Positions 13,828 to 59,900 of a DNA stretch of 64,000 nt are shown here, piece by piece. The position numbers were made by a program, and so were the translations under genes. The stretch is from Thelephora terrestris (lineage: Eukaryota > Basidiomycota > Agaricomycetes > Thelephorales > Thelephoraceae), in the NCBI GenBank assembly GCA_015956445.1, contig WIUZ02000023.1, positions 124,001-188,000 of the forward strand. The letters run 5' to 3'. Below the pieces are notes generated by a model, which saw nothing but the letters and a program-made list of their open reading frames with translations, did not search any database and was not told the origin of the DNA. Within the stretch, counting starts at the first letter, position 1. Every line of letters begins with the position of its first letter.

Positions 13828-14079
13828 TGTGCCCTGATCGTAGCTCATGGAGAGGGGGAGCTGCGATTGAGAAAAAAGGCGGGGGTCAGGCGAAGCTGAC
13901 TATTATGTCGCAGGTGCAGTGATGAACAGTGATGGGTAGATGGGAGCGCACGTTGAGATCTGACCTCTGCCTGCTGAACGGTATTTTCCGGGCGGCCCGT
14001 GCCTTGTTGCCGTCCGCGCTTCCCACCGCTCTGACCATCTCTACGTAACATTGGCACCTCGTCGAAACTTTTGGGGGAG

Positions 14080-14204
14080 CTTCATCCTCTACCCCGAACC
14101 TCGGACGCATATATCACACCGAAAGCTTAGTTTTTTTGCATCACTCAATCGGTGCAACCGTCCTCGACGACCGCTTCGGACCAGAACTCGCCTCATCCCC
14201 ATCC
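14080..14204 (+). pseudogene. OHCU decarboxylase 5' fragment (promoter and first codons)
   Basis: About 14080-14130 matches the upstream region of the intact OHCU gene (the CTTCAT.CTCTACC and GCATATATC blocks, compare 16845-16880). Bases 14150-14204 match its codons for VLDEHLVPNLASSSST, here reading VLDDRFGPELASSPST. The match then stops and histidine acid phosphatase sequence begins. This is the junction of a tandem duplication, with the OHCU copy cut short. Confidence 0.55.
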
Positions 14205-14700
14205 ACGAGGATAGAACGTGGATGGTTTTCGAGACTTTCCTCATTTCTGGCCGGATGACCGTCGAAAGGCTGACTTGTGCACAACCCGAGTCGTCGCCTC
14301 GATCTCCCGACTGATGAGGTGGTGGAACTGGGTGACTGTGGATGGGGTAGCCGACTACTACCGCGAGCCAAGGGAAGAGTACATGAGGGTATTCGTGAAC
14401 TATGCCAGACAACGATTAGTGTTCTGCGGTGCCGGTGAAGATGGCATGTGCAAGCTAGATGAGCTTTTGAAAAACCAGCGGTATGCCAGGAACGACGGAT
14501 TTCGGGATTTCAAAAAGTGCAATCATACCGGCGGTGAACAGGCTCCTACCTGCTCCTATCCCCGACTGGGTTTTGGGCTTTTATGCACTCTAATGGCGCT
14601 CATGGTCACCACCCTGTTCTACTTTAAAGGCAAGCATATCACCTCTAAATTGTACAATGGACAGAACCGACCCTCTTGTTGTATCATCTTGGTTTTCCCA
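14205..14700 (+). pseudogene. Histidine acid phosphatase C-terminal remnant, copy 2, with hydrophobic tail
   Basis: Bases 14205-14290 read RTWMVFETFLISGRMTVERL, like the segment before the conserved C-terminal block of histidine acid phosphatases. Bases 14373-14523 then read REEYMRVFVNYARQRLVFCG, GMCKLDELL and RNDGFRDFKKC in another frame. A hydrophobic stretch (FGLLCTLMALMVTTLFYF) follows and could be a C-terminal membrane anchor. The catalytic N-terminal motifs are absent and the frame changes at least once. It is the second copy of the remnant at 11712. Confidence 0.6.
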
Positions 14701-14980
14701 TCACCCCACACGACTTGTAGACACCGCTATCAACAAGTCTCGGTTATTGATCCTACGCGCTACTAAGTGTCTTAAATCGCCCACAGGTTTTTCTGTACAG
14801 TTTCAAAAATTCTCATTGGAGATGCAGAAGGTGTGGAGGTAAAGGGTACAGGTTTTGGCGGTAACGCTAGCGTAACCCAAAACAAGAATTAACTAGGAGG
14901 ACGTTGATGGAAACTGGGAAAAATGCTCGCTGACAACTGCGGTGGGAAAAGAGATGAGGAGCAACGAACGAATCGCAAGT

Positions 14981-16610
14981 TCACAATATCAACTCCCGAA
15001 CCATTCCCCTGATCTCCTCCTTCACCGTGTAGCTGATATGGTCAGACTCGCAAAGCTCGAGTCGGTCCAGTCTGTTCCCAAAGGATTTGAGGTGGTCAAG
15101 GAAGGCTTTCAATAGACACCCATCGTTGTGGTGTTTGTCGTCCTCGTGAAAGGTGATGCAGAGGCATTGGAGGTGAGGGAAAATCTTGTCCTGACCGAGG
15201 TTCGAGAAGCGGACGTGAAGAGGTGCATCCAGGAAGTGTATTTCCCTTACGTATGGGAATTTGGCGGACAAGACTGCCGTGGATATGGACACATGGTGTA
15301 CTCGAAGGTGGGTAATCTCTTCCCGAGGGACGTATGTAGCAAGGTCGAGGAGGAAATGGTTCTCCAGGCCCCCGATGACGATCGTTATCCAGTCTGGTGC
15401 CCATTCCGTTGCAGAGGAAGGAACGTCGCCTCGGCCTGGGTCTCCGACAGTGAATCTGGGGTAACCACGGCAGTGGGAAAGCTCAAGTCCCAGCCCACTT
15501 TCGGGGCTTCTTTGACGTTGAAGGTAATCCCGAAGGTATGGTCCGATGATCACGGAAATATCGTCGACTGTGACGTCCGATAGGTGGAGGAACAAATCGT
15601 TCATGTTCCTGGGATAATCTAGATGATGAAGGAGCACAAAGCCACCCCGCGTGCGTCCGAACAACTTGAGTGTCCTCAGGTGGGCGAGTGGTACCCGAGA
15701 TGAGGTACCGTCATCATCATCTGGGATCGAACTCCCAGCAAGTGTGACTTCCTGGAGAGAGGGGTTGGAGCGAAGTATGGAGAGTATTTGGGGCAAAGTT
15801 ATCATGGGTGGGGGGAATGAATTGTCGAGGGTTAAGGCTGTGAGTACAGATGTGTTTGACGTAATGAGGTCCCAGGATGAGATCGTGAGGTTTATAAGCT
15901 GGAGCTGTCGCAGCTTCGGGAAACGATAGCAGGCGAGGAAGTCCGAGACCTCTGCTGGATCTTCCCAATCATTAACCCGTAAGACGACCGACTCGACGCT
16001 ACTGGTCCGAATCCCGTCGCGGCTGGCCAGCGAAGAGAGTATAGAGCCCATGAACCTTGAATTCCTGGTACGGAGATGAACCCGCCGTATGGTGTCCCTC
16101 GCGGCTCGATTCTGGAGTGCATTTGACAGGCTGTCATTGAGTCTAGATCCCCAGCCTTGGTAGTCACCGTTGAACACAAGGTCGAGTGGGACTGTTGCGT
16201 GTCGAAGGTGTCGTCGTGTCCAATCTTCCAAGTGGGTACCCCAGCAACTCCAAACTTCTGGGGTGCGCGAGGCGACCTCGAACCAGTGATGGCAAACAAG
16301 CAGGAAGTTGTGAGATCTCTCCTCCAACGGGCCAAAATCCCCCTTGAGAGTGGCGTTCCAACGGAAGATCTCCCCGAGTACTTCTGGCGGAAGTTTGGAC
16401 ACGTTCAACAATGAGTTTCGGGCGCGTTTGAGTTGGATAATCGCCGTCTCGTGCTCCCTGATTTGTTCTTCCAAAGCCCGTATGTAATCGATGTTGACTT
16501 CCCTGCTTAGAGTGGATTAGTCCGCGATTTGACATGGGTGACATCTCTGCTCACATTGAGCAGTCTTGCTGGGGTAGCATTTTGCCGTTGGTAGAAGGGG
16601 AAGGCGGCAT
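14981..16610 (-). CDS. F-box protein, copy 2, intact (two exons)
   Basis: Exon 1 is 16555-16610 (MPPSPSTNGKMLPQQDCS), the intron is 16503-16554 (GTGAGC...CAG) and exon 2 is 14981-16502. The product is 525 residues. Residues ~20-50 form a short coiled coil (ALEEQIREHETAIIQLKRAR). The F-box-like motif follows (LPPEVLGEIFRWNATL ... CHHWFEVASRTPEVWS). The rest, to the end, has scattered Leu-rich blocks (FPKLRQLQLINLTISSWD, NPSLQEVTLAGSSI) like the irregular LRR tails of basidiomycete F-box proteins. The expected role is substrate choice for an SCF ubiquitin ligase; the substrate is unknown. Transcription is divergent from the OHCU decarboxylase gene, ~275 bp apart, so the two may share a promoter region. 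Confidence 0.82.
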
Positions 16611-36800: not shown

Positions 36801-39800
36801 TGTCAGGGCCACTCTACCCTAACAACTACCAGTGCACTGAGCCGACTCCGCAGAGTACTCACTAGTCCAACTAGTTTGTGAGAGAACGATCACGTCTCTA
36901 TTCTTCCGGTAGGTTGTCCGAGGTCACTACAAGTCAGGTCGAAATCCTAAAGAGAAACCCAACCTAAACCGTACTTCGTTCGGTTTAACAAGCAAGGGTT
37001 TATCCCTACAACAGGATTGATGACTCCACCAGTTGATCGACTGGACGCTCGAGGTGTTCTAATATGACTGCTGGGAGTCTATAGTTACGAGGCGCAGTTG
37101 ACGCGCAGAGCGGGAGGGAGAGCAGATGGGGGTGTCTTGGATCAAACAAGAAACTCTGACTTGTCCTTAACTGCAACTGGGCTGAGAAGGGCAGAGGATT
37201 TCCTGAGGTAACAAAACTAAGGTACTACGATACAGCCACAGTTGCTACTTATACTAAAGGAGTGGCCATGACGTCAATACCCTAATATACCCTTATCAAG
37301 CCAGAACAAAGGGAGATAAGGAGTGTGAGAACGCTAAGTAAGGGAAGCGAACAAAGGTGACGCGTGGGAGAATAAAAGACAAAGGGCCTTACTAGCGTGT
37401 GAAGGATTGCATAAAAGATAAGAAATGTCCGCATGAAACATAGGGGTAAAGATAACACTAGTCCAAATGGAAATAGGAGCATGGGGTCGTGAAAGTTCGT
37501 ACCTGGGGATCTCACCCAAGGGCCAGGTGTCAATCTCCCTTTACATGGCCTCTGCCAGCTGGATTCGGGAGTAGAGACATTCAACATCCCTTGTTGTCTG
37601 TAGGCGGTAACAGCATCACGGACAAGTGGCAACCTCAACGTACGTCCGAACATGAGGAGGTCGGGCCTAGACTCATGGGACATGAGGGATTACAGATTCG
37701 CCGGCGTTTCACGCTAACGGCTACTCCACATGCGCTGGGCTAACCAGAAGGATCCTAAGGCGATGCTTCCGAATAACGGCGAGTCCTTCCTCCGGTTAGG
37801 AGACTGTGATGTGACTGTCCACGTGTGTGATCAGGGTCCAGGGTTGTTCGTAATCGTAAAGTCATGAGGGGTCGTAAAAGGGGTTCGTGATGTCATAAAG
37901 GAGTCATCAGGGTCTTGAGACCTAATTTTAGTGCGCGCGCGTTCTAGGTGTTCCGGAACGAAGTTCTTCCAAGGCCGTCCCGCGGGCCGAGGTGTCAGCT
38001 TGATGTAGTAAGCCAACGATGATGGTACAGGGGCGGAAGTTGATGTGACCCGGACCAATGAGGTTCGTCGAGGTAGGTCACGTGAAGGATCACCGATCTA
38101 GGCTATAAGAAGGACGTCTTCTTGGAGCCATCCTTGATCAGCAACACCAGCAACTTCCCCATTATCTTACCAAAACATGTCCTTCCCCAACAACCATACC
38201 TACAAAGTCGCCAATGGTATCTCCACCATCTCTCGCATCGACCGTCGTGCCGCCGCTCGCAAGACCTACGCCTGTGCGGCGGGGACTCCCTATACCACGG
38301 ATGACCAGGTATGGGGGAGACCTAGAGCTTTGTGTGCTAGCACTAACGCCTTCCTCTAGGTAGAGGTTACGTTCTTTTGGGCGTTGATGTCCAGCTAACG
38401 GCTTCTAGATCTTGGAGGTCGTCACGGAAGTGGACGCCGAACGTCTCAGGGAGACGATGCCTCATTTGATGGGGTTGACCTGGGACGATGAGCTCTGGGT
38501 CCGCACGATTATCGCTGAGAAGGTAGCCTTCCGAATGAGGGGTAGGTTCGGGGAGCTGGAGCATCCGGTCAAGAAGGAGCTCTGGTACACCCTGCAGAGG
38601 GGAATCTACGATCAGGACCTATTGGAGCATGGAGCAACCGTTCCTCGAGCCGTCCGCCAGGCCACTGTTGCCACGTCATTGTTATGGTCGCTCGTTCGGG
38701 AGGGGGAGAGCAAGGTAGGTTCTCCGTTTGAATATTCGAGTATGACTCTCGATTAATCAAACTGCCTAGGTTGAGCGTTTGGAGCGCGAGGTGAAGGAGG
38801 CGAAAGCAGACGTCCTTCGTCTATCAGCCGAGGGTCTTCAATTGAAGGAGACCTTGGCCGCCTTCCAACAGGGGACAAACGAGGCGTTAGAGGCAATGGT
38901 CGCCAACCATCAAGAGTTGATCGCCGGGTTGAAGGTTAGGGATAACAACATTAAGGGGGCGTTGGCTAGAAGGGATGAAAAGGTAATGCCGCTTTCATCA
39001 TTGCTTAAAATGATGGAAGCTGACATTTCCTAGACTGAAGAACTCGAGAACGTAGTGGCAGTATTGACGGCGCAGGTCGAGTCCTTGCAGGACAAGACCT
39101 GTAACTGCAAGGAGGGTCCCAAATTGGTTGGTCAGGGGACCGCCGATGTTCCATTCGAGCTGGAGTACGCCGACGAGGTGGTACTCCCATCGCCTAATCC
39201 CTCGTCTTATGCGACGCCTCCGATCGAGAACGCGGTTCCCGTTCCGACACCAGGTCCGGCTTCCACCTTGGCCGCTTCCGACAAGGAGAACTGTGGGCGC
39301 TGCGTCTTGCAGCCGATCCATCAGTTGGTGAAGATCGAGGATGAGGTCATGGAGGTTGACCGAGCTGAAGATGCTCCGAGGGTCGCCGAGGTACGTCCGG
39401 TGACTAAGGGGCAACGTTGCAAGCGCTCTCGACGCCGTCCTGCTCATTGCATGGTTCCGTCGGCTAATCCCTATCCTCGACCAGTTGAGTCGGATGGTGA
39501 CCAGTCTGGTCGAGGTGGAGGACGAGAGTTCCGCTATCGGGTCCACCGTCCCTACCGACAGGTCGAGTCGGAGATCCAGCTTCGCCACCAGCTACGACTC
39601 GCAAGACAGGATCCCACCCAGGGGTCCGACGAGGGAGACGGAGGGTCGCTTGCCGACTTCGTCGATAGTGCTGTCGAGCAGTCACCCAGTGATGGCGATG
39701 TGGGACCAGGTGTTCCAGAGTTCAGTGACATCTGGGAGGCTGATCGGTCCGCTCGAAGGAGTCTCTTCCTATCGGCTTGAACTAATCGTTCAGCTGAGTG

Positions 39801-40100
39801 CCGAAGATGGCGACGCCATGTTCGGGGAGGTTCTTGCAAGGAGGGGCCAGCACTACGATCTCCGGGATGGACGTTTGGTGACCTTCAGGCCTGCCGTAGA
39901 TAGAGTCGACTTTTGATGGGGTTAGGATAGCACTTGTATAGCTCGTTGTGGCTTCGCGGGGAATAGTACGCGCGTGTGTGTGTTTCGAATGATTGGTGTG
40001 AAGGATAAGGAGTGTGAAGCATTCAAAACATAGGAGGTGATAAGAAGAGTTCGAAGAAAGAGCGTGTTATAAAAAGTTTAAAAATACCATGTTCCTGACA
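36801..40100 (+). mobile_element. LTR-like unit 2 (family II), 3.3 kb, looks whole-length
   Basis: Starts TGTCAGGGCCACTCTACCC and ends CATGTTCCTGACA. The 5-bp duplication ATCAT lies at 36796-36800 and 40101-40105, inside unit 1. The plus-strand coding stretch (38179-39916) has a coiled coil and an acidic, Pro-rich tail. An antisense hydrophobic stretch (37282-37683) is shared with unit 3. No polymerase and no repeated ends within the unit were seen. With the same TG...CA ends and 5-bp duplications, it is treated as an LTR-like fossil. Same length as unit 3 once later insertions are subtracted. Confidence 0.78.
38179..39916 (+). pseudogene. Family II coiled-coil coding stretch in unit 2
   Basis: Several open stretches in a row on plus: MSFPNNHTYKVANGISTISR (38179), then MEVVTEVDAERLRETMPHLM with GLTWDDELWVRTIIAEKV (38412). 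A coiled-coil stretch (VKEAKADVLRLSAEGLQLKE) and a Pro/acidic tail with CNCKEG and KENCGRC pairs follow. Borders between them look like short introns. The same stretch recurs in unit 3 (45935-46566 and 52676-53816), and a more distant one in unit 4. No known domain; possibly gag-like. Confidence 0.5.
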
Positions 40101-40658: not shown

Positions 40659-41795
40659 TGTCAGGGCCACTCTACCCTAACAACTACCAGTGCACTGAGC
40701 CGACTCCGCAGAGTACTCACTAGTCCAACTAGCTGTGAGAGAAAGATCACTTCTCTATTCTTCCGGTAGGTTGTCCAAGGTCACTACAAGTCAGGTTGAA
40801 ATCCTAAAGGGAAACCCAACCTAAACCATACTTCGTTCGGTTTAACAAGCAAGGGTTTATCCCTACAACAGGATTGATGACTCCACCAGGTGATTGACTG
40901 GACGCTTGAGGTATTCTATATGATGAACGCTGGGGTTCTATAGTTACAAGGCACAGTTGATGCGCAGAGCGGGAGGGAGAGCAGATGTGGGAATGCCTTG
41001 TGTTCAAACAAGAAACTCTGACTTGTCCTTGACTGCAACTGGGCTGAGAAGGGCAGAGGATTTCCTGAGGTAACAAAACTAAGGTACTACGATACAGCCA
41101 CAGTTGCTACTTATACTAAAGGAGTGGCCATGACGTCAGTAACCCTAATATACCCTTATCAAGTCCGAACAAAGGGAGATAAGGAGTGTGGGAACACTAA
41201 GTAAGGGAAGCAAACAAATATGATGCGTGGGAGAATAAAGGACAAAGGGCCTTACTAGCGTGTGAAGGATTGCATAAAAGATAACAAATGTCCACATGAA
41301 ACATAGGGGTAAAGATAACACTAGTCCTAAAAGAAATAGGGGCATGGGGTCATGAAATTTTGTACCTGGGGATCACACCCAAGGGTCAGGTGAGAATCTT
41401 CTTGTATGCTTCCTTTGGAGAGGCCAAAGATAGAGACCATTCATCATCCCTTGTTGTCTGTAGGCGGTAACAGCATCACAGACTAGTGGCAACCTCAACG
41501 TACGTCCAAACATGAGGAGGTCGGGCCTAGACTCATGGGACATTGTCAGTGTGCTGAATTTTATTCCCTTTTTTGAACCATTTTTACACCCAACTTTCGC
41601 CCACTTTCTTTTACCTATACCCCTTTCTTATCTTATCATCTCCCTTATCACGACTCACACATCATCAAGGAACACAGACAAGGACACTGATGATATTACA
41701 CGCGGCGCGCAGCAAAGACACAAGACTACCAAACCGACGGAGTTGAATCCGCCCGGACTCTATGAACGAGGACCAAGGCGTACAAACCCTAGTCG

Positions 41796-43570
41796 TCAAG
41801 ACCTAGTCTGCCAGTACTCCTCAGCACTGGCAATCTCCTCCTCCGTCCCCTCCGAGGCATTCTCGCCGACTTCCTCGTCGACCATCTCGACGACCCGAGC
41901 TTCCTCCAGACGATGAGCGACGGCCAACTGAACCTCGGCGCGCAGGCGGTTCCTCGCTGAATCGACCATAGTCTGATCCAGAGTCCTCTGGACTGACCAA
42001 CCCTCCACTCTCTTGGTCAGTTGAGCCACCAGGCGAACGGCCTCCGCTGCACGCTGGACCGACAAGAGCGTAAGGTCGGTTAAGCCGTTCACGTCGACGG
42101 ACTCCACCGGAATCAGCTCGCCGCGATCCAAGCGACACTGTAGCATCGTCGCATCGGAATAGGACGGTGGATTCGATGTCTCCACCCTGACGGATGACGT
42201 TGGGATTACTGGGACGCATACGGTGCGCTGGACGAAGTGCCCCGCGATAAGGAACCCAACGACGAGCACGGATAGAACGTTGACCACGCACCAGCGAGAT
42301 CGAAGGAGGCGGAATCAGAACGGCCACCTCGTTCTCCCCCGCGTACTCCAACTCGGGAGAACTGCTAACTGGATTCACGGCCGTCTCCTCGGACGTCTCG
42401 CGAATGACCTCCTCCCCGCCATCGGTGTGCGCAGGTGTGCGATACGACCCATCGGAAGCTAAAAAGGGATGTCAGTGGACAAGTCAAATATGTCAACCGA
42501 CATCCCACCTATGGGAGAAGCCATCCAATCCGGTATCGACTCATCTTCGGACTCGTCGCGAACCGCAGCTACCGAACGAGTACGGCAGTGACACAACCGC
42601 TCACTCATCGATTCAACCCGAGCGCCCAACAAGGGCAAAGCGTCGTCCAACGTATCAACCTAGGAGTGGCATGAGCTCTCTTGGACAAAGACCAGGAGAA
42701 GTCGCACCAACCTTGGTGTCGAGCTCATTCAGAGCCCTTCTATGACGGTTGAGCCGTCGGTCGACCTCGATCAGGTCTCGCTGGATGGTGTCATCCCGTT
42801 CCTTCAAGGACTCGACCAACCGGTTGTGTTCTTCGCGCATCGCCAGCATCTCGCTCTCAAACGTGACGCGGAGCGTGTCGTTCATCAGGAGCAGCGTCTT
42901 CTTCGTGTCCAACGCTTCCGAGTACATCCTACAGGCATCATCCTTCACTTCCTTCACTTCACGCTTCAGCCGCTCATTCTACAAGCCTGTCAGTGTTATC
43001 CCACAAGCGGGATGCACAGACCGACTCACCACTTTCTGTTCCGTCCTCAAAAGGAACCAAAGGCGGTGACCAACGGCTGCTGTATAGTGTTGCGAACGAG
43101 TCGCCCCCGGCCACCTTCCTTCGCCGTTTCCCAGATTGTAGATTCCCATCTTCAGAAGACCCCACAACGATGACGCCACCGGAGTCTCCCATGGCATACG
43201 CAACTTGGTGTCGAACGTGACCCCGCGCATAGACTCTTGTAACTTGTGGTCAATCAAGTTGTGGTACCACAGCTCGTCGTCTATGGTCAAGTAGTTGGGA
43301 GGCTTGGCTATCGTTGCCTCTAGTTGTTGAGCGTCCACCTTGTCGGCAACCGCGAAGATCTACGATGCGATGTCAGTGGTTGCCAGCAAATGGCGACACG
43401 TGACGTCGCACCTCGCGATAACTAGGGTACGCTACATTGGCGTTCGGAAGGAAGTAGCTCTTGTTCTGCACGGAGCGTGGATCCGCAGACTCGATGGTAG
43501 CGGTGCTGTTCTCAGCACGAAAAACTCGATCGGAGATCATGGGCATAGTGGATGACACTGGGGGCAAGGG
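41796..43570 (-). pseudogene. Coiled-coil coding stretch of unit 4
   Basis: The minus-strand stretches include MPMISDRVFRAENSTATIES (~43545), MDAQQLEATIAKPPNYLTID and DELWYHNLIDHK (43338), a coiled coil (MKEVKDDACRMYSEALDTKK, 42957), and an Arg/Gly/Ser-rich acidic end. Order and motifs (DDELW...) parallel the unit 2 stretch, so they are diverged members of one family. Function unknown. Confidence 0.5.
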
Positions 43571-44508
43571 GTCAAATACCCAGTGGGTACATGCTGAATA
43601 CATTGTGATCACAGTCAAAAAGTGATCACAATGTGCCCAGTGGGGAAAATTTGAATACATTCAAAATGTACCTGGCCATGTGAACCCAATGTGCCAAGTG
43701 GGCACATTTTGATTGCGATCACAATGTACCCATCAATGTGATCTCAATGTGCCCACTGGGGACATTTTGATTGCGATCACAATGTACACATCAATGTGAT
43801 CTCAATGTGCCTGCTGTGCACATTTTAATTTCTTTCACAATGTCCCCATCAATGTGTTCCCAATGTACCCAGCTCATTACATAATAGTTTCTTTCACAAT
43901 GTTGTCCATAATGTGTCCAGCATGTGGCTGAGCCACTCATTCAAAATTCTTTCAAAGATTATTCAGTGATGTGTCCATAATGTCCCCAGGGGGTTCTTTT
44001 TGAAGTAATCACAATGTAATCACAATATTGTTCAATTTCATCATGAACTTTCAAAGAAATCACTATGTGTATGGCTGTACACATTCTAGACACATCACTG
44101 GATACTTTGTGAAAGAATTTTGAATGAGTGGCTCAGCCACATGCTGGACACATTGTGGACAACATTGTGAAAGAAACTATTATGTAATGAGCTGGGTACA
44201 TTGGGAACACATTGATGGGGACATTGTGAAAGAAATTAAAATGTGCACAGCAGGCACATTGAGATCACATTGATGTGTACATTGTGATCGCAATCAAAAT
44301 GTCCCCAGTGGGCACATTGAGATCACATTGATGGGTACATTGTGATCGCAATCAAAATGTGCCCACTGGGCACATTGGGTTCACATGGCCAGGTACATTT
44401 TGAATGTATTCAAATTTTCCCCACTGGGCACATTGTGATCACTTTTTGACTGTGATCACAATGTATTCAGCATGTACCCACTGGGTATTTGACCCCTTGC
44501 CCCCAGTG
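43556..44508. mobile_element. CACTA-type palindromic MITE, 953 bp
   Basis: The element is a nearly complete inverted repeat centred near 44032. It starts CACTGGGGGCAAGGGGTCAA and ends with the complement, flanked by the 3-bp repeat TGA (43553-43555 and 44509-44511). CACT(A/G) ends and a 3-bp duplication fit the CACTA/EnSpm superfamily. Inside are many short repeats of AATGTG, GATCACAATGT and CCCACTGGG. No coding capacity. It sits just upstream of the coding stretch in unit 4. Confidence 0.82.
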
Positions 44509-45934
44509 TGAGTAGTTGGTTGGTGGGATTGTTGATTTGGGAAGAAGGGAGTTTGATGGATCCAATGGCCGGTTCACACTACGCTTTATTCGATCCTCGA
44601 CAGCGCCCGCGCCCTATTCGCCATTGGCTCGGCCCATCGTTTCACCGGTCCAGACTCCTCATACATTTGCCCTCAACATTCAAGCCCCACTCGGTCCTTT
44701 GTTGTCCCGATCGGACGAGCTGACGCGTCGTCCTCTCATTGGTTTGTCTTCACATGTGATATTACCCTTTGTCATTCCTTTCCCACACGACGTCATGACC
44801 CCTTTCTCATTCTCTCACGAACCCTGACCCATTAGTCATTCCTTTATCATTTCTATTCTACATCCCGGGCCGCTTACTGTTCCAGCTTACTCTCGGCCCT
44901 TCTTTGCTCCGAGTTATTATTAGATAGGGTGATCTATGTCCCAGCCACTCTCCTATATAGGTACCAGTAGAGTAGCTGAGGATTCCCCATCTTTGATATC
45001 TCGGGAAGTCCTCTTCTCCTTGCAGCATCAGTGTATTTGCTGTAGGCCACTGAAGAGCTTATCGAGTAACTCCTTGAACCGTTCGCTCTCCTCTCTCACT
45101 CAGTCTTGATCCTTAACCGGTGTTTGAAGCGAGCTCGGACACAACATCGAGTTCCGCACTGCTCTTTGGATCAAGTCATCAGTTTGAGGCGCCATCCTCG
45201 GGCTCTTGTATCTGCCCTCAGAAGATGATAGGGATTTACCCGATAGAGGCTTGGCACTCCTGCTGTGAATTCGGACAACTTACCGGAGAACGCTCGTCCA
45301 TCACGTTTTGGACCACGTAGACTTTGGGTGGATATAGGGAAGTCGTTCCCCCTTTGCCCCATTGTTTCTTGTTGGTTGGAGTTGCGACTCACCAACAGCA
45401 CTGGTACCTGAAGGGCGAAGAGTGGCCCTGACAGACATGAGGGATTACAGATTTGCCGGTGTTTCATGCTAACGGCTACTTCCACATTGGCTGAGCTAAC
45501 CAGAAGGATCCTAAGGCAATGCTCCCGAATGGCGGCGATTCCTTCCTCCGGTTAGGAGACTGTGATATGACTGTCCACGTGTGTGATCAGGATCCAGGGT
45601 TGGTCGTTATTGTGATGTCACAAATGAGTCATCAGGGTTGTAAAAGGGGTCGTAACAGGGTTGTCAAGGTCATGAGACCTATTTTTAGTGCGCGTGTGTT
45701 CTAGGTGTTCCAGAACAAAGTTCTTCCAAGGCCATCCCGCAGGCTGAGGTGTCAGCTTGATGTAGTAAGTCAACCATGATGGTACAGGTGGCGGAAGTTG
45801 ATGCGACCCGGACCAATGAGGTGCGTCGAGGTAGGTCACGTGAAGGATCACCGATCTAGGCTATAAGAAGGACGTCTTCTTGGAGCCATCCTTGATCAGC
45901 AACACCAGCAACTTCCCCATCATCTTACCAAAAC

Positions 45935-46566
45935 ATGTCCTTCCCCAACAACCACACCTACAAAGTCGCCAACGGCATCTCCACCATTTCCCGTATTGAC
46001 CGCCGTGCCGCTACTCGCAAGGCCTACGCCTGTGCGGCGGGGACTCCCTATACCACGGATGACCAGGTATGGGGGAGACCTAGAGCTTTGTGTGTTTGCA
46101 CTAACGCCTTCCTCTAGGTAGAGGTTCGTTCTTTCGGCGTTGATGTCAAACTAACGGCTTCTAGATCTTGGAGGTCGTCACAGAGGTGGATGCCGAACGT
46201 CTCAGGGAGACAATCCCACATTTGATGGGGTTGACCTGGGACGATGAGCTCTGGGTCCGAACGATGATCGCCGAGAAGGTGAACTTTCAGATGAGGGGTA
46301 GGTTCGGGGAGCTGGAGCATCCGATAAAGAAGGAGCTCTGGTACACCCTGCAGAGGGGGATCTACGATCAGGGTCTGTTGGAGCATGGAGCGACTGTTCC
46401 TCGGGCTGTCCGCCATGCCACCGCTTCCACTAGTCTTGTGTGGTCGCTCGTTCTGGAAGGAGAGAGCCGGGTAGGTTCTCTGTTTGAATATTCGAGTATG
46501 ACTCTCGACTACTGTGGGTTTCGAAACACTTGGCACAAACAACTCCGACGCGCCCCGAAAAAATAG
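45935..46566 (+). pseudogene. Family II coding stretch in unit 3, first part
   Basis: Related to the start of the unit 2 coding stretch (MSFPNNHTYKVANGISTISR and WDDELWVRTMIAEKV). Transposon B interrupts it at 46512, and related sequence resumes at 52652. Confidence 0.6.
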
Positions 46567-46591
46567 AGACCTTGCACAGTGAGGATCTTGC

Positions 46592-49009
46592 TGTGATGAT
46601 TTCGCCGTTTACCCCCTTTCATTTCCCTTATTTAACGCCTCATCACCACTAAGTCAGTTGGTGCCCTGCCCTAAACACGGCGGAAAACTGTTTATTATGC
46701 AGTATGCTCTATGCTTAACGACTCAAAGTCCAATACGTGGAACGTGCTACTAGTCAAGATACCCCAGAAGACCCGAGGTATAATACGTGAACATGTACCG
46801 GCGAACCTTCGTACGAAGATTCCCCCTACCTGGCCCTCCGTTGCCCCTGGACGACTAGTAGATATTCAGGCTACCGACAACAAGGGATGTATTAATAAGT
46901 GTCGCGCGCTGACCTCTCGCAGAAGTCAACCGACTTATTAATCTGACCCTTGGATTGGACTTATGAAAACCATTATGCTTTACGACTCATGGATCACACG
47001 CAATAGACAATATAGAAGATTCATTGGAAGCCAACAGTACAAAAGAGTTATTTAATCAATATCTCTTCGGATCCTTTGTACTACTTCCAATGCCGATCTC
47101 ACCAACTCCTCGTTCAACCAATTCTGTTCCCGGATCTCGTTCGGGTCCACGTCCGACAAGTCATCGTAATCTGGAAGCTCCGTATCAGAGTTTGGTTCAC
47201 TATCGGGAACGAACTCGGCGTACGGATCATACTCCAGAGCAGGCCATTGACGGCGACTACCCCAAGGAGTAGAAACGAACCCAGGACGAGGAGTGTCCCT
47301 ACGGACGACTCCTACGTTCTGGTAGAATTCGTCGCTCCCAATCTCGATGACCTCATCATCAACGGGAACCAACCTGTTCTCGTGACGGACCAACAGACGA
47401 GCGGGCGGCGACTCAGCCCGGTTAGGGATGATCGGCGACCCGGCCCGATGCAGAACCTCCTCTCCCTCCTCTTCTTCGACTCGGACCTCCGGCTCGTTGC
47501 ACCTCCTCTGGAGATCCCGGACTTCTCCGGTCAACTCGGAGACACGACGAGTAAGGCGAACCTAAAGGAATAGGGTTAGAAGAGATCAATTATCTTCAAC
47601 CCCTACCCCTTACCTTATCGTCCTCCAATTCTCCGGTTTTGGTAACCAGAGCCCGGACCAAGTCCTTGAGAGTGGTCACCTCTCCCTAAAAGAAAGTTTG
47701 AGTTAGAAAGGTCAATTACTCCTGACCCAAACTTTCTTACCTTCAACAAATCGATATCGGCCCCCTGCCGAACAACGCTATCCTCTTGCCCATGAATGAC
47801 TCCCTGCATATCTTCCTTCCAGTTCTCCAAGGCTTCTATTTCCTCACGACGACCATCAATGCGCTCGTTGACGTGAGCCACTTCGTCCATAAGCATGGAC
47901 CCAACGTTCCCCGTATGGAGAACGCTGGCCTCCAACACGGAGTTGAAGGTCTCGTTGGATTCGGTCATAAACTCGACACCCCTGTTAAGGAGTTCGGTCG
48001 CGTAGGGGTTTGTCTCAATACGCGCCAACTTGCGCCGAGACACCCTACGAGCGGCCTGGAGAAAGTCCCTGAAACCTAAAAGGAGTTAGCTTGAATTCCT
48101 AAATCGGAATGCGCAAGCAGGGCCCCCACCTAAATCAGAGAAACCCTCATTAGGGTCGGCGGTGGCGGTCCTATCCATAACAGCCCCCAAAGTAGGATAA
48201 GGGCGGGATGGATCACGGCGGGCATGGGAGAAACGGTCGATGTTGTAGTTGTTCTCCTGTACAGGAGAGTAGGAGGAAGAGCGACGGGTAGGATTACGAG
48301 TAGAGGCACGAGGCATGTTGTGAGTGTGTAACAAAGGTGGGTTTGTTGGAAGACCAGTCATCCAACCCCCTTTGGTTATATACCAAATGCCACGCCCCTT
48401 CCACGACTCAGGAGTTGAGTCATCATTTCTATTGTTTACTGCGCATGACCCACATGACATCATATGCCCCTATCTTTAGTCATATGCTCCCCTTTTGCCA
48501 TTGGCTGTTAGTCAGCCATACCCACATTCCTTCCGAACATTCTCAGGATACGTCATGCTTTGTAATTGCTCTGTAATGCTCTCAAATTGCTATTGGCCGC
48601 CACACTTTCGTTTATCAGCTGATAATTTGTAGCATTAGTCACCACGTAACGCACAGACCATGCAGTGCTGCGCACGGACCATGTTTGTCTGTGTTTGTAT
48701 CCATAGTATAGTTACATGTGACGGTCACATCACAAATCTAAGTAGTATATATACTCGGAGTAGTTTAGCCTGTACTCCTTAGATTTGTTATCATCAGACT
48801 CTCCGTGACCTCTACTGCTGTGTGCTTAGAGCAAGAGTGCCTGAAGACCCTTGTCTCCTTCTTTCTCCTCTTCTCCAATCTAGTCTGTGAAGAGACTTCC
48901 GATATCCCTGGGTTTGCAACAGGGTTATAACTGTGTGTTTGCCCCCTGCGTGTGATAGGTTTGGATAGCAAGAGTGCTATTGAACTGTAGAGGTCGCGTC
49001 GGCCTGACA
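46592..49009 (-). mobile_element. LTR-like unit 5 (family III), 2.4 kb
   Basis: Starts TGTGATGATTTCGCC and ends GTCGGCCTGACA on plus. The 5-bp duplication CTTGC lies at 46587-46591 and 49010-49014, inside transposon B. The minus-strand coding stretch (47052-48318) has a coiled coil and a long acidic tail. Possible TATATA promoter boxes lie near 48370 and 48745. No polymerase. One of the youngest layers of the nest; length looks whole. Confidence 0.75.
47052..48318 (-). pseudogene. Coiled-coil coding stretch of unit 5
   Basis: The minus-strand stretches begin MPRASTRNPTRRSSSYSPVQ (48318). A helical part follows (MSRRKLARIETNPYATELLN, 48043), then a coiled coil and an acidic tail (SDTELPDYDDLSDVDPNEIR) to 47052. 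The pattern is a basic N-terminus, a coiled coil and an acidic end, as in units 2 and 4. No known domain. Confidence 0.5.
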
Positions 49010-49344
49010 CTTGCCCGAACGTCCCCTCCGCAACAAAGCAATGGCAGTTCTTAAATCCCTGCCTAAACTGATCGTTTACAAGGCGGTCCTAATTTTTGAA
49101 GCATCCCTGTGACCAGGGGGAATTCTCACTGATCCATACAGTCGTCGATTATTTATTGTATTTTGTATTACTTATACATGCCGTTAACAAAATTTCACCT
49201 GCCAAGGGTGCTCCATGCTCCAGGGGATACCACGAACTGAGCTGGTTCTCATAGTACCGAGCCTGAAGCCTCTCACCGCGTTGCGATCGAAGGTGATCTC
49301 AAAGTCTCTCGCACATCCATCACCATCCATCGGCACTTCTCACG

Positions 49345-51212
49345 ATGAACAAAAAGCCAAACACGGCGAGCCATGCTGTCCGCCGTAGCACACGCCACAC
49401 AGAGACCGGCACAAAAGAAAACATTCCTGATGACCCTGGAGGGCATTCAATATCAGTAACCCCTATGTTGTCAGGGAGTTCAAGCCCTGGCCTTCGAGAC
49501 GAGCCTGGAAAACATACCGAGCTCGGAGAGGCTGACTCCATGGAGGATGAAGATGATTTCATGCCCACTGTACAAGAAGTGGCAAAGACGTTGACGGCGA
49601 TGAGATCAAGGCAACCCGATGAGAACCTCACTCACCAGGTGGGTTTTGCCCGATTCGGTAAATCGGTCCAGAGCTTCAACATTCGATAGCAGGGGACTTG
49701 CGGTCCAGCCCTTCGAGCATTGGGAACTGAAGGTCAGATCCCAACACGTGTCGTTGTGGACACAGACTTACCGGACTAGTAAATAAACCCGTCTCCCCGC
49801 TTTTTGCATTCCCGACCGGAAAGAATGTGCTTTCCGAGACCTACCTCAGTGAAGATGTCACCTGGTCAAGATTTATTAAGGTGGCTTCTGGAGAGATGCG
49901 TTTGCGAGAGGGTTTCGTACCTCGCCTCGCATGGAAATTCAGTAGCGGTTCGGGTTCGAAGATGTGGACCACGCTGTCAGACGAACGTGCGTACAAACGT
50001 ATGATGGAGGCGGGAGCCAAACGAATTCGGGCCCGTGCAAAGAGGGAGAGTAACCTGAAGGATGCTGATCTTGCCTCAGGGTGGAGGATTGATCTCCAGG
50101 TCCTGAACAAAGTAGAGCGGATAAGGGACAAAGACGACGAAGACGAAGGTGAGCTGTCGAAAGAAAAGAAGGTGAAGGCAAAGGCAAAGAAGAAGCCAAA
50201 GAAGAAATCGTCCGCGGTGAAGCGAAAACGCGGTGCGCCAAAAAAGGTATCCATCGTTCCATCAATATCCCATCAAAACTTACATACAGTCTCGTAAAAA
50301 GGCCAAGCAAGTTCGAGACCCTGACCTGACACCGAGTGCCGGGTCGAAAACATCGGACTCAGACGTCAATGACGCTTCAGAGTCAGAGAGCACTGACGAC
50401 TCCGAGGAGGTAATTATTGAAAAAATTAGAAGGGAAAACAACTGCGCCCGCTGTAACGCTCCGTGCGCATTGTTGACCAACTCCGATCACCATCGTTACT
50501 CGATGGAGGAGCTTTCCCTGTGGGTGACGATGATAGTAAGATCTTCATTACATTCTGAAGCGGTCATGTTTTTACCATTCACTTATGTTACCAGAATCAT
50601 GGCGAGTGGGAAAGTCACAGACGTCCTCCAAAGGAGGTACTTGAGAGAGTTTACAAAAATCACCCTCGAGTCTCGCTCCCCACAGATCTTACAGGCCAAC
50701 AAGTTATCTCACCCAAAGGCCGGAGACCCCCTGCCTCTGACGCCCAATATGTTTATCCGCCCAACCCATTTGTGGGATGGAACCCATATCTGACAGCAGG
50801 GCCCTCGAATGTGCCACCGGGCCCTTTGTACCCTACCCCTGGACTCTTGAATCCCCCCTTCTACCCTCCATATCCTCCTACTTCCCATGCGAACAATTTT
50901 TCTGACACTCCCGCAGACAAGAGGAGGCACCGATCACCAAGCGTTGATGATCAACACATCGAATATCCCTCTGTTTCCGAATTTCTTGCCGAGCTCGAAG
51001 CCGCTGACCGTGGTCATCATTATTTCACAAACTACACGGATTTCTTCCATGAACAAGGCTATTTTCATCTTAACGAGCTTGCGGATGCCTCTCTCACCAC
51101 AGAACACATGATGGACATCATCCCTGATATGAAGGATGGAACAGCGCACGCAATAAAAAACAGTGCATTGGCAAGGGTCAAAAAACTCAAAGGTAAGGGG
51201 GGAAGCAAGTAG
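49345..51212 (+). CDS. Transposon accessory protein B: Cys/His motif plus SAM-like C terminus, four exons
   Basis: Exons are 49345-49657, 49780-50246, 50290-50535 and 50595-51212, with GT-AG introns. They sum to 1644 nt and an open 547-residue protein. Residues ~1-100 are polar. Next is VNKPVSPLFAFPTGKNVLSE, then a basic region with many Lys (KKVKAKAKKKPKKKSSAVKR), a likely nuclear localisation signal. Near residue 330 the motif CARCNAPCALLTNSDHHRYS followed by LWVTMI parallels the WKCELDETHKTCF...H...WAAYI motif of protein A. A Pro-rich linker leads to a SAM-like C terminus (SVSEFLAELEAADRGHHYF ... LTTEHMMDIIPDMKDGTAHA ... VKKLKG). It lies within the inverted ends of transposon B, convergent with its transposase. 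I infer an element-encoded partner of the transposase. Unit 5 inserted 335 bp upstream of the start. Confidence 0.75.
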
Positions 51213-51258
51213 TAGTAGCACATATGTGTACTTGTATTTCGAAAAAAAATCCTTTTCG

Positions 51259-52441
51259 TCAGTAACCGCAACGACGGAACCACCCACACGCATCTTCGGA
51301 TGTTATGGAAAATACCGAGTCGTGAATAGAAACGAGGACCTCGCGTTGGATGTCAGTCATCGTACCACGCTCGAGGGCTGGCAGGTGATGGCGGAAGTCG
51401 GCCTTGATTGCCGAGAAGGCTAGCTCAATGGGATTGTAATCCGGGGAATATGGGGGAAGAAACTCGCAGCGCATGCCCCTAAACATGTCCATGTTAGCAA
51501 TGACAGAATGCTTGGACATGTAGGTTATCACCGCTCGTAAATCATTTTGATGATGTCTTGGGATTTGTGAACTCGGCAGTTGTCCACCACTATGACAGAG
51601 TTGGGACCAGGAAAAACATTCATCTCGTCGAGGAGGCCGCGAATAAACTTTTTGAAGCGCTCTGTGTCGTAAGATCCCTGGACGATGTCCAATGCGATGA
51701 TTCCATCAAGAGATAACACGGGGAGGACCGAGTACCTGCGGAGATGTCAACCGAACATTCAAAAAGTGGTTGGCGAGTGGCTTGCCTCTTGCCCCTGCAG
51801 AGTAACACCTTTTTTGACACTCGTTGTCCCTTGACCGCCCAAGCATATTTGCGGCGTGCAACACGTCGATCGAAGGAGGTCTCGTCCGCAAAGACCAACT
51901 GGTCTTTCGTGTATCGGCTTGAAATACGAAGCATGTACTCGGCGCGTTTGAAGGCCGATCGTTCTGCTGCAACATGTGAAGCCTAAAAATCTTCGGTTTC
52001 ATCCACAGATATTTGATAGAAATTATCCTGATCACCTTTTTCATGGTGAGGCCATTTCGTCGGAGGGTCGTCCAAATCAATTTGCGCGAGACCGCGACTC
52101 CTAGATTGGCTTCAATTTGTGTTTGAAGGTCTTCGAGGAAGATGTCAGGCGTTCTTCGTACACTTTCAACAACATACTGAAGTCAGATGTCATTAGTAGT
52201 TCATTCATGAAAGAAAGAAGAGACTGACTGCTTCCTCATCCTGCGAGAGGAAACGAGGTCTCCCGGTCTTCCTACCCATACACTCGGGCTCAAGGCGTCC
52301 CGTCGTCTCCCAAGTTTTTCGGATACGGTAGATTTGACGGCAGCTGACGGTTGTCAAGGCTTCAATTTCGGATACTGAATGTAGGCTGCCCAAGGCCAGT
52401 ATAGTCGATTTGAGGTCTGTTGATATCTTCTTGCCTCTCAT
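51259..52441 (-). CDS. Tc1/mariner-type (DDE_3) transposase B, five exons, intact
   Basis: The exons on minus are 52229-52441, 52036-52176, 51786-51982, 51532-51735 and 51259-51478. They sum to 975 nt and 324 residues, with no stop. Introns are ~50 nt. The third (51736-51785) has a GC-AG border (GCAAGC...GCAG), chosen because it restores the usual RGKRYSVLPVLSLDGI motif. The HTH part reads LKSTILALGSLHSVSEIEAL and SCRQIYRIRKTWE. The catalytic acids are D in FADETSFD, D in VVDNCRVHKS and E in SPDYNPIELAF. An ATG upstream at 52582 is in frame; 52441 is preferred because the HTH begins there. It is similar in length and motifs to transposase A and ends 46 bp from the convergent accessory gene. 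Confidence 0.85.
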
Positions 52442-52675
52442 GGTGCGATCCCGTTGAAGGGTGGTTTCAAGATCTTGAGGTTGGCGCCGTTCTGCACACT
52501 CTTGCCCTGAAGTAGTGTGCGATGAGGAATGGGCCGGGGAAGTTGTGCTGTCGTCGAAGAAGAGCGTGAGCGAAGTCCTCACTGTTTGAGGTCCCTATTT
52601 CTCACGACGCGGTGGAGTTCGCACGTGCCAACTATTTCGAAACGTGCAATAATCAAACTGCCTAGGTTGAACGAT

Positions 52676-53816
52676 TGGAGTGGGAGGTGAAGGAGGCGAA
52701 GGCAGACGTCCTTCGTCTGTCAGCGGAGGGTCTTCAAATGAAAGAAACCTTGGCCGCCTTCCAGCAGGGAACGAACGAAGCGTTGGAGGCAATGGTCGCC
52801 AACCATCAAGAGTTGATCGCCGGGTTGAAAGTTAGGGATAACAACATCAAGGGTGCGCTTGCCAGGAGGGATGAAAAGGTAGCTTTCCTCATCTCGAAGA
52901 CGAAATGAGGGAGGCTGACACTTCTTCTAGACGGAAGAACTCGAGAACGTGGTGGCCGTGTTGACAGCACAGGTCGAGTCCTTGCAGAACAAGACCTGCA
53001 ACTGCAAGGAGGGTCCCGTGTTGGTTGGGCAGGGGACTGCCGAGGTCCCGTTTGAGTTGGAGTACGCCAATGAGGTGGTACTCCCATCGCCTAACCTGTC
53101 ATCCTATGCGACACCTCCGATCGAGAACGCGGTTCCCGTTCCAACTCCGGCTCCGGCTTACACTCTGGCTGCATCTGACAAGGAGAACTGTGGGTGTTGC
53201 GCCTTGCAGCCGATTCATCAGTTGGTGAAGATCGAGGATGAGGTCATGGAGGTTGACCGAGCTGAAGATGCTCCAAGGGTCACCGAGGTACGTCCGGTGA
53301 CTAAGGGGCAACGTTGCAAACGCTCTCAACGCCATCCTGCTCATCGTATGACTGCGTCGGCTAATCCTTACCCTCAACCAGTTGAGTCAGATGGTGACCA
53401 GTCTGGTCGAGGTGAGGAGCGAGGATTCCGATATCGGGTCAACCGTCCTTACCGACAGGTCAAGTCAGAGATCCAACTCCGACACCAGCTTCGCCTCGCA
53501 AGACAGGATCCCACCCAGGGGTCCGATGAGGGAGACGGAGGGTCGCTTGCCAACTACGTCGATAGTGCTGCCGAGCAGTCACCTGGTGATGGAGATGTGC
53601 GACCAGGTGTTCCGCAGTTCGGTGACATCTGGGAGGCTGATCGGTCCGCTCGAAGGCATCTCTTCCTATCGGCTTGAACTAGTTGTTCAGCTGAGTGCCA
53701 AAGATGGTGACGCCATGTTCGGGGAGGTCCTTGCGAGGAGGGGCCAGCACTACGATCTCCGGGATGGACAGTTGATGACCTTTAGGCCTGCCGTAGATAG
53801 AGTCGATTTCTGATGG
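52676..53816 (+). pseudogene. Family II coding stretch in unit 3, second part
   Basis: Related to the coiled-coil and acidic parts of the unit 2 stretch (VKEAKADVLRLSAEGLQMKE, CNCKEG, KENCGCC). It follows the right end of transposon B. Confidence 0.6.
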
Positions 53817-56800
53817 GACGATGATAGCACCGTATATAGCTCATTGTGGATTCACTGGGAATAGTACGCGTGTGTGTGTGTTTTGAATGATTGGTGTGAA
53901 GGATAAGGAGTGTGAAGCATTCAAACATAAGAAAGGGTAAGAAGAGTTTGAAGAAAGAGCGTGTTATAAATTTTTTTTAAAATAACATGTTCCTGACACC
54001 CTTCTCAAAGCAATCAAGAAGGAGTATGGAAAGCCAGGTATCATCGGTATCTACCTGGAGTTCAAACATGCGATGGAAGTCAGAATCCTTGAAGGACAAG
54101 ACCCCACACCCGCCTTAGACAAATTCGCCTCCCACATCAGCCGACTCGAGAGCAACAGGAAAGACGCCGTCATCCCACCTTTCATCAAAACAATGATGCT
54201 CATGTCGAAGCTACCTCCGTCATACAATAATATCCCTCAGGCAATATGCCAGACGGAGGACCTTGCCAAGCTTGATACGGATGGTCTTCGACGGTCAATC
54301 ATCCTCGCATGGGAACAAACGTCCAATGGTAGGGGAAAGCAACAGGCCCACAGGCTGTCCAACGTGCAGCGCGCCCCTGGAAACCCCAATTTCCAGCAGC
54401 AGCAGCAGCAGCAGCACGACGGGAGCCAACCCCAGGGACAAGGAGGTCGAGGACGTAACCGTTGAGGACAAAGAGGTGGACGAGGGAAATTCCAGCAAGC
54501 TCAGCAGACAGAAGAGTTCTCGCCTATGCCTGCTCCCCCCCCTCCACAAACTCCGGTCCCCTCCTCCAGCATGTCGCCCACCAACTACGGCTTTGCCTCC
54601 ATGGCAGCATTCCCTCTACGCTCCCTCCCGGTCCATCGTGAAGGTGCAGGGACTCCCTCCTTCTACCCCTCCGTTCAGAAGGCAAGGGATCTCTCGGCTC
54701 GAATAGGTGTACAGCCCACAATCGAGACCCTCAAGAGGCTGGAACGCTCCTACGAGCAGACGGTCGATCCTCGCCCCCGCAAAAGGCGCGTACCCTGCTG
54801 AGCGAGGATGAGGTGAGCCTGGGATGGTCGGGTGATGAAATGGTTGTTGGGTCCCCTGCGTCGGTTGCCAGTCCGTCTGGCGGAAGGTACGAAACGAGTA
54901 TTCAGGTGTTGAGTAACAATACTAACGACTCCACAGCGGCTGAAGATAAACGTAATTCTTCAGTAGTAGCTTCTGAATACACTTGTTTGACCTTGTCCGC
55001 CCTGAGTGAAACTGAGGCTGTATGGATGCTCGATTCCGGCGCATCCCGGCACTTTACCTTCGATATGAATGATTTTGTTGAATACAAGGCAATCGAACCC
55101 ATTCCTCTAAGGACTGCGACCAGTTTCACAACAATCATCGGTAAAGGAACAGTGATCCTCTACATAGACGAGAAAGCCGTTAGGCTACACCCCGTCTACT
55201 TTGTCCCAGAAATATCCCATAGGCTGTTATCTCTTGGTCAGTTCCTTAAAAGCGGACTCTTCTCGAGGGAGAGTGCTCGCGAAATCTCACTTTACGAAGA
55301 AGAGACAGAGTTTCTCACCTTCCACCCTCGAACCGAGGATGACAGTATTTACGTCATCAGGACTCTCCTCAGAGCACAACTCACTGCTGCTAAAATTGAG
55401 ACCATATACAGTGCTGATTTTGAGATCATGCACCGCCGACTGGCTCACCCCTCCAAAGAAGTGATCCAAAAGGCCGGGAAACATGTCAAGGATTTTCCTC
55501 ATGTCGAAATCCCAAAAGAGCACCTCTGCACTGGATGCACGCAAGGTAAGATGACCAATAAAACCTTTCCCCCATCCAGCACCAGAGCAACTGCCCCTTT
55601 CGAGCTGATCCACTCGGATCTAAAGACCTTCCCCATTGAATCCTATCGCAAATACAAATACTCAATCATCTTCTATGACGACTATACCTCACATGCCTGG
55701 ACCATGAATTTGCGCACTAAAGACGCTGCACTCGTGGCTACCAGGCACTTCCTGGCTATGGTTGAGACCAAGTACCAGAAGAGAGTACGCCGATGGATGT
55801 CCGATGCCAGGGGGGAATACACATCCCTAACATTTATGACAATGCTCAAGGAAAAGGGAATCGAGATCCTCCAATCTATCCCGCATGCACACCAACAAAA
55901 TGGCCGCGCGGAAAGGATCATTCGAACATTGATGGATAAAGCGGAATCCATGAGATTGCAGGCTTGCCTCCCGCAATCCTGGTGGGAATTCACCATTGAC
56001 CACACAACTCACGTTTACAATCGAACACCAAACCGTCGCCTGAACTGGCAGACCCCATTCCAGCTATTGAATGGAAGTAAGCCATTGATTGATCATCTTC
56101 GGGTCCTTGGTTACGGAGCATACGTCTTCATCCCGGAAGAAGTACGAATAAACAAGCTCGCACCTCGATCGGAGTTGATGATCTACCTAGGTACCCACCC
56201 GGGAGGAAAAGGATGGATCTTCATGCGCGGACCGAATAATATCATCTTCTCCGCCGCACAAGCCACCTTCGATGAGTTGCACTTTCCAAAGTGCCCAACT
56301 GCCAGTACACGGCGCAACACACGGCTGCAATCTACTGCGCCACCCCTACCCAGTCATCACTGTCACAAAGACGGTGACTGCCAGTGTCCCCTTCCAGGAG
56401 AACAAGAGGAAAATGGCGCAACACCCTCAGCGCGTCCCAAACCTACCCCCAAGCCTTCCTCAAAGGGCAAGGAACGTGCTATTGAGCCCGCACCGCAACC
56501 GCAGACGATGGTGCAATCTAGAGTGCCCAGTTCGGAGCCGCCGAGATCACCTACCCCCAGCTCTAGCTCTGATTCCGGCCCTGAGGATGCGCCACCCGCT
56601 CCGCCAATGGTTGTGCCTCCGTCACCCGCCAAGGCTCGGAGGCCCCAGCGTGAACGAAAGGTCCCGGTCAAGCCCAGCAATGTTTACGGAAGTAAACATC
56701 CGGTAGAAATAATAAAGTCTACGCGGCGTATGAAGGATTGGAAGAAGGTTGTTGGGGATTTTTCCGCAGCACCTAGGTGCGGGCGAAGTTCAGGAGCAGT

Positions 56801-59282: not shown

Positions 59283-59900
59283 ATGTTCAGTGCTCCTAAC
59301 CCATTCCCCTCTACCAGTCCTATCCAACGTCCGGTCATACCTGACGCCAGAAGGTCTATCTGGGAGTATAAACTCATCAGGAGCCTTCAAGTAAATCGAA
59401 CTAACGGTCTACTAACTCATTTCCCTTACTATCGCCCTTTTGTGGCCCTCGACGCCGGAGTCACTACTCCTCCTTTCCTCTTAGGAGCTGATCATCAATT
59501 CCTCTGGAATTCCGATCTCACTGGTAGCGTTCTAGCCACCGTTTACTTCAGCATAAGCCCGGCCTTCTATTTTCCTAACCCTCGCATTCATCTTACCACT
59601 AACACTCATACCCATTCCCCTGCCATCATTGTCTTGTGGTGGGAAATTCCAACTGAATTACCTTATTCGGTCTTAGAATACCTCGTCAGTTTTGAACGTC
59701 TCAGCGATCAAAACTTCGACCCATTCGTTCAGCAACTGAGTCAGTTCTGTCAAGACTACCACTCACCCGTCTACCCTTATCAAACCAAGTCGCCGCTCGC
59801 TCTTGATACTCCCCCTCTCCTCGTCCCCACACCTGGAACCCCCTTCAAAGTTCGACCAGATACTCCCTACCCGTCCTCTAATCCTCTAGCGCCCCTTTAA
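59283..59900 (+). CDS. Family I unit 6 reading frame, 205 codons, unknown function
   Basis: Open plus-strand frame starting MFSAPNPFPSTSPIQRPVIP. It has FPYYRPFVALDAGVTTPPFL, IIVLWWEIPTELPYSVLEYL and FERLSDQNFDPFVQQLSQFC, then a Pro-rich end (PYPSSNPLAPL). Related stretches occur in units 0 and 1. TATATAAGG lies ~110 bp upstream. No known domain; it runs antisense to the other reading frame of the unit. Confidence 0.5.
   Translation: MFSAPNPFPSTSPIQRPVIPDARRSIWEYKLIRSLQVNRTNGLLTHFPYYRPFVALDAGVTTPPFLLGADHQFLWNSDLTGSVLATVYFSISPAFYFPNPRIHLTTNTHTHSPAIIVLWWEIPTELPYSVLEYLVSFERLSDQNFDPFVQQLSQFCQDYHSPVYPYQTKSPLALDTPPLLVPTPGTPFKVRPDTPYPSSNPLAPL

Follow-up and report, generated by a model that had tools for sequence, protein, structure and literature searches.

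A Tc1/mariner-type insertion in Thelephora terrestris that carries its own second gene, and a second convergent gene pair of similar layout

Tc1/mariner transposases such as Sleeping Beauty serve as one-protein tools. A locus in the basidiomycete Thelephora terrestris (GenBank assembly GCA_015956445.1, contig WIUZ02000023.1) raises the question of whether an element of this superfamily can own a second gene, and of what the product of that gene might do. The window, a stretch of 64,000 nucleotides (positions 124,001 to 188,000 of the contig, forward strand), holds short introns and Copia, Helitron-like and DDE_3 genes. Two of its regions are considered here. Element B (46512-52649) contains a transposase gene, tpB, an accessory gene, accB, and a further gene, gene C, while pair A (3399-6739) is made up of the transposase gene tpA and the accessory gene accA. 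Element B is a single Tc1/mariner-type insertion at a TA dinucleotide that carries its own second gene, and both genes are intact.

The window includes an uninterrupted paralogue of both flanks of element B, and the 6138 bp between these flanks are therefore an insertion. This paralogous empty site of the target repeat lies at 37679-40100 (forward strand) and was found by comparing the window with itself: 37679-38752 matches 45434-46508 at 89.5%, and 38754-40100 matches 52650-53998 at 88.3%. The empty copy has a single TA at the junction, and TA flanks element B on each side (46510-46511 and 52650-52651). The ends are degenerate terminal inverted repeats (TIRs) of ∼82 bp, located at 46512-46593 (forward) and 52568-52649 (reverse), with identity at 58 of 81 aligned positions. 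The local inverted match between them scores 47, whereas no shuffle out of 100 exceeded 28, and with a different scoring it reached 64, the highest of 300 shuffles being 40, although the left and right ends differ at four of their six outermost bases. The inverted ends and TA target sites that the initial annotation had placed around 46512-52649 are thus borne out by the empty site and by the shuffle-tested ends. Together, the DDE_3/DD34-type domain of the transposase, the TA target-site duplication and the TIRs are the characters that define Tc1/mariner membership, and all three were found in element B.

The transposase gene tpB (51259-52441, reverse strand) predicts a protein of 324 aa from five exons (52441-52229, 52176-52036, 51982-51786, 51735-51532 and 51478-51259) with no internal stop. 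One of the four introns is of the GC-AG type, its GC donor following the exon 51982-51786. This third intron (51736-51785, reverse strand; GCAAGC...CAG) was picked since the frame stays open. TpB matches Pfam DDE_3 with E 3.6e-27, which together with the open spliced frame confirms the intact DDE_3 transposase named previously. Its catalytic residues are D151, D235 and E270, and 34 residues separate the last two (DD34E). The transposase gene of pair A, tpA (3399-4479, forward strand; exons 3399-4052, 4103-4208 and 4262-4479), predicts 325 aa with a DDE_3 match at E 5.4e-28, and its D235 and E271 are separated by 35 residues (DD35E). TpA and TpB share 33% identity over 332 columns (BLASTP E 1e-54; hhalign probability 99.9%), and at this level of identity they are old relatives rather than recent copies. 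The best match to TpB among solved structures, searched by sequence in the PDB, is Sleeping Beauty, and it is weak (E 0.033). Single-protein searches of the IMG/VR viral contigs recovered relatives of none of the four proteins TpA, TpB, AccA and AccB (0/4). An alignment of TpA and TpB recovered 18 loci there, with best segments 26-51% identical; these are presumably of the kind expected of prokaryotic IS630, and none of the 18 has a match to an accessory protein or to the gene C product at E 0.01.

The accessory gene of element B, accB (49345-51212, forward strand), is not a single open reading frame (ORF) but is spliced over five exons (49345-49638, 49690-49732, 49780-50246, 50290-50535 and 50595-51212), ending in a stop codon at 51210-51212. 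It is convergent with tpB, and the stop codons of the two genes are 46 bp apart. An intact gene of 547 residues had been described at this position. The gene is intact, but the five-exon model predicts 555 aa, and the shorter figure depends on the splice model. In pair A, accA (4653-6739, reverse strand) is likewise convergent with tpA, with 173 bp between the stops, and its seven-exon model (6739-6587, 6530-6335, 6282-6064, 5994-5781, 5727-5574, 5431-5252 and 5201-4653), of which the start exon is the least certain, predicts 554 aa. The two accessory proteins are therefore near-equal in length, as had been proposed from figures of 547 and 567 aa, at the slightly different sizes given here. 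Reading frames were assessed with a codon-usage score trained on four further open frames in the window, comparing the six frames of each gene. The frame read was the top one in all five genes (tpA 11.4, accA 12.8, accB 16.1, tpB 14.6 and gene C 21.0), with the next-best frame at 4.4 for accA and 7.0 for accB. The best antisense frame also scored highly in the two transposase genes (10.7 and 10.7) and in gene C (11.2), so that the accessory genes give the clearest result.

AccA and AccB, whose genes lie ∼45 kb apart, share a Cys/His-W motif of the form C-x(6,8)-C-x(7,8)-H-x(9,10)-W-x3-I. Its first residue is number 339 in AccA (of 554) and number 320 in AccB (of 555). In accB it is C-x2-C-x3-C-x7-H-H-x9-W-x3-I (50443-50535, forward strand) and in accA C-x5-H-x2-C-x8-H-x10-W-x3-I (5252-5353, reverse strand). 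The motif announced in the initial annotation, C-x7-8-C followed by H and W, is accordingly present, though with a spacing of C-x8-C in AccA and C-x6-C in AccB. The four candidate ligands (C, H, C and H in AccA; C, C, C and H in AccB) suggest a putative metal site. A slightly looser form of the motif occurs exactly twice in the six unspliced frames of the 64-kb window, once in each accessory gene, and 20 shuffled windows together yielded one occurrence. Among 100000 shuffled proteins the motif up to W was seen in 98 for AccA and 9 for AccB, and up to I in 5 and 0, respectively. W-x3-I is followed immediately, and at the same residue, by a phase-0 intron in accA as in accB. The donor at the motif end scores best among the frame-keeping combinations (24 for accB, 12 for accA). 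As accA has six introns and 1662 coding bases, simple arithmetic puts the probability that one of them falls on that base at ∼0.4%. The motif, the intron site, the layout and the length, rather than sequence similarity, make it likely that accA and accB are of common descent. The claim that the same gene pair stands beside a second transposase thus holds for the convergent layout, the motif and the intron position, and fails for similarity of the accessory sequences. A family with an H...W...I...PP motif may be common in mushroom genomes.

The remainder of the accessory proteins offers few further clues. No Pfam model scored above its cut-off for AccA or AccB, whether the whole protein or the C terminus alone was searched, and no PDB sequence matched either at E 10. 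A match of AccB to HK97-gp10_like (E 0.0081) and one of a piece of AccA to a prion N-terminal peptide (E 0.028), both below the cut-offs, were taken as chance. The C termini had been described as SAM-like, a description that the present analysis does not sustain: neither AccA nor AccB matched a SAM family in Pfam, at full length or with the C terminus by itself, and single-sequence AlphaFold models of the C termini, which are of low confidence, had no match at E 0.001 when compared with the PDB by Foldseek. Both models consist of five helices, the last one long, at a pLDDT of 57.5 for AccB (50943-51209, forward strand) and 62.5 for AccA (4656-4928, reverse strand), and a helical C terminus common to the two proteins is plausible on these predictions. 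An alignment of the two C termini by MAFFT was not credible. The weak Foldseek matches of the AccA model (E 0.2 and above) include NusA, RuvA, RAD51 complexes and aIF2-alpha, among many others. These four are taken here to share the SAM-like fold class (the SCOP 'SAM-like' grouping), to which many of the other matches of that model presumably do not belong.

Pair A is a gene pair and not a proven element, so that inverted ends and TA sites hold for element B only. The flanks of pair A are occupied by a palindromic insertion on the right and a Helitron-like frame on the left, so that its ends may have been lost. The right-hand insertion (6876-11457, ∼4.6 kb) lies between 9-bp direct repeats, GGCACTCGG (6867-6875 and 11458-11466), and its arms are built of a 35-bp minisatellite, present ∼51 times in one and ∼30 times in the other, and of AACCT/AGGTT arrays. 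It may represent a gene-less foldback element of the Mutator type. The left-hand frame (3-3200, reverse strand) is open over 1066 codons and matches DUF6570 (E 1.8e-41) and, below the cut-off, Helitron_like_N (E 2.3e-5). Its N-terminal part reads like a retropepsin domain, an unusual fusion if real.

The left third of element B holds a third gene that was absent from the earlier gene list. Gene C (47052-48316, reverse strand) is an intact four-exon gene, open when spliced, that predicts an acidic coiled-coil protein of 367 aa, and its Pfam matches, many of them to coiled-coil families, are all below the cut-offs. A tblastn search of the window revealed no significant second copy (best other match E 0.066). 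The gene lies between the arms of a weak inverted pair of 31 columns (46990-47020 and 48422-48452). Under three scorings, 6, 9 or 63 of 300 shuffles were as good as this pair, and 147, 135 or 285 of 300 were as good as a direct pair around the gene. The inverted pair could represent the ends of a nested element, and gene C could be either native to element B or nested within it. That gene C was copied from the coiled-coil gene carried by the target repeat was considered and rejected, the two being only weakly similar (BLASTP E 0.05 over 34 residues; hhalign probability 0.6%). Inside element B there was no sign of a strong repeat boundary. Of the introns of gene C, the second (z -4.2) and the third (z -3.5) are strong hairpins that resemble introner-type introns, the first having z -1.8.

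What the accessory protein does is best explained, with about an even chance of being right, by an accessory gene family that is owned by the element and is found also beside the transposase of pair A, its product being a putative nuclear DNA-binding partner of the transposase. On this explanation the Cys/His motif would bind a metal and, in AccB together with a very basic stretch, would contact the element ends; protein contacts would fall to the helical C terminus. Transposase and element ends would thus be gathered in the nucleus, by analogy with the Myb-like protein of Harbinger, after which the transposase would cut and paste at TA in the usual DD34E way, as expected from the family. The Harbinger protein is described in PMC9179366 as binding the transposase, entering the nucleus jointly with it, binding the TIRs and diverging far more than the transposase. 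Both accessory proteins are basic (pI 8.8 and 9.0), and AccB has 12 K/R within one stretch of 20 residues. A wider form of this proposal, to which rather less than an even chance is given, is that fungi harbour two-component Tc1/mariner systems, in which a conserved DD34-35E transposase and an obligatory, very fast-evolving Cys/His-W partner have been passed on jointly, tail-to-tail, since before the two transposase lineages split.

Several observations weigh against the partner explanation. Similarity between AccA and AccB is not detectable by BLASTP (E 9.5) or hhalign (probability 0.2%), and for local alignments of three parts of the proteins, 238, 1207 and 549 out of 2000 shuffles did as well. 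Definition of the motif followed inspection of the sequences, the splice sites were chosen by the analyst, and a simple pattern detected no branch point in the intron at the motif end of accB. Pfam revealed no DNA-binding family, Myb/SANT or TET/JBP dioxygenase match above cut-off in the accessory proteins, and the most basic stretch of AccA has only 6 of 20 K/R, equal to that of TpA. TpB is itself strongly basic (pI 9.6, with up to 9 of 20 K/R in one stretch) and may need no helper to reach the nucleus or DNA. The inverted-repeat list of the window contains none joining the two flanks of pair A, and four pairs of its flanks gave inverted scores of 16, 19, 27 and 21 against shuffle maxima of 22, 29, 29 and 31, none of them better. 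Beyond the palindromic insertion, too, no TIRs were found, nor was a TA boundary for this pair. With four of six outermost bases unlike, the present mobility of element B is doubtful, and the element, judged by its ends, may not be mobile now. No relative of AccB was detected in bacterial and archaeal genomes, and scans of viral contigs with single sequences detected none of AccA or AccB. An older paper states that the function of the extra PHIS/Harbinger ORFs was unknown (PMC4482050).

The lack of sequence similarity between the accessory proteins and of TIRs around pair A would also fit an accessory gene captured from the host and carried by chance, with pair A as an unrelated neighbour, and the presence of gene C indicates that element B tolerates extra sequence. 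This is considered unlikely, as both pairs are convergent, the accessory proteins are near-equal in length, their motif is confined to these genes within the window and both genes have an intron of phase 0 at the same site. An accessory protein that is owned by the element could instead counter silencing by the host and take no part in transposition. According to PMC12730594, several lineages of fungal DNA transposons carry TET/JBP dioxygenases, passed between lineages, with which these transposons are thought to evade methylation-based silencing. An accessory protein that diverges quickly next to a conserved transposase would be consistent with an arms race. However, neither TET/JBP nor any other enzyme domain was found above cut-off in the accessory proteins, a word search of PMC12730594 returned 'mariner' 0 times, and an anti-silencing role is thought improbable.

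Element B could also be an old copy whose TIRs have decayed and which received accB or the block of gene C as separate nested insertions. The TIR identity of only 58/81 is in keeping with such a history, as are the coiled-coil gene in the left third, in a region full of nested repeats, the weak inverted pair that brackets it and the weak stretch (E 0.05) that ties it to the coiled-coil gene of the target repeat. Against this, no more than 46 bp separate accB from tpB, both of them intact, a strong internal repeat boundary was not found, and nesting of the gene C block would leave accB unexplained. A degraded composite is rated the least probable of these alternatives, with only a slim chance of being correct.

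Comparison with known systems places the partner explanation in context. Element B resembles Tc1/mariner (IS630-related) elements of the DD34E Tc1 type in its DDE_3 domain, D-D-34-E triad, TA target and inverted ends, and differs from them in its size of 6.1 kb, its intact second gene and its strongly degenerate ends. The transposase genes differ from that type also in being split by predicted introns, four in tpB and two in tpA. The premise that Tc1/mariner elements normally encode only the transposase is broadly right, but the ciliate TBE and Tec elements, which belong to the superfamily, carry three ORFs (PMC7325037) and provide a precedent for a multi-gene Tc1/mariner element. In TBE/Tec the extra genes lie inside a Tc1/mariner-type element with one of them reversed, and the TBE TIRs are ∼80 bp (PMC7325037 and PMC4724952). 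By their published descriptions, the extra proteins of TBE are a 22-kD protein of unknown function and a 57-kD zinc-finger/kinase protein, and that of Tec is a site-specific recombinase. PIF/Harbinger and PHIS elements also combine a transposase with a separate and much more divergent second protein (PMC9179366 and PMC4482050). The PIF/Harbinger transposase belongs to another superfamily and its second protein has Myb/SANT, which was not found in AccA or AccB. KolobokP, as outlined in PMC9587614, has its transposase on one strand and an accessory gene downstream on the complementary strand, as here, but is of another superfamily, and its accessory protein is a His-Me finger nuclease. Multi-gene relatives of Tc1/mariner in ciliates and opposite-strand accessory genes in Kolobok are thus already known. 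No title or abstract opening among the literature matches listed names such a second gene in a fungal Tc1/mariner element, which does not establish its absence from print. PMC9674265 lists a Mariner-type family, MarorTcMar-18, of 3,972 bp in the mushroom Marasmius oreades, a size that exceeds the need of one transposase gene; its link to element B is a lead only, drawn from length.

Other repeats were noted in the window. The repeat unit of the empty site is included in an insertion at 36801-40100, which, when compared with the uninterrupted host sequence at 59491-59495, shows a 5-bp repeat, ATCAT, and opens with an 883-bp LTR-like stretch that is repeated at 40659-41543. A self-complementary stretch of ∼950 bp with 58-bp tandem repeats lies at 43555-44509. 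Two diverged copies (∼80%) of one stretch are found at 12164-16516 (reverse strand), the second having F-box and LRR matches below the cut-offs.

Taken with pair A, the arrangement in element B suggests that certain Tc1/mariner elements may be assisted in their movement by a partner protein that they themselves encode. A lineage that had indeed kept such a second protein would demonstrate that partner-dependent transposition, known from Harbinger, can evolve in this superfamily too, and would also give a handle on fungal proteins that are as yet unnamed.

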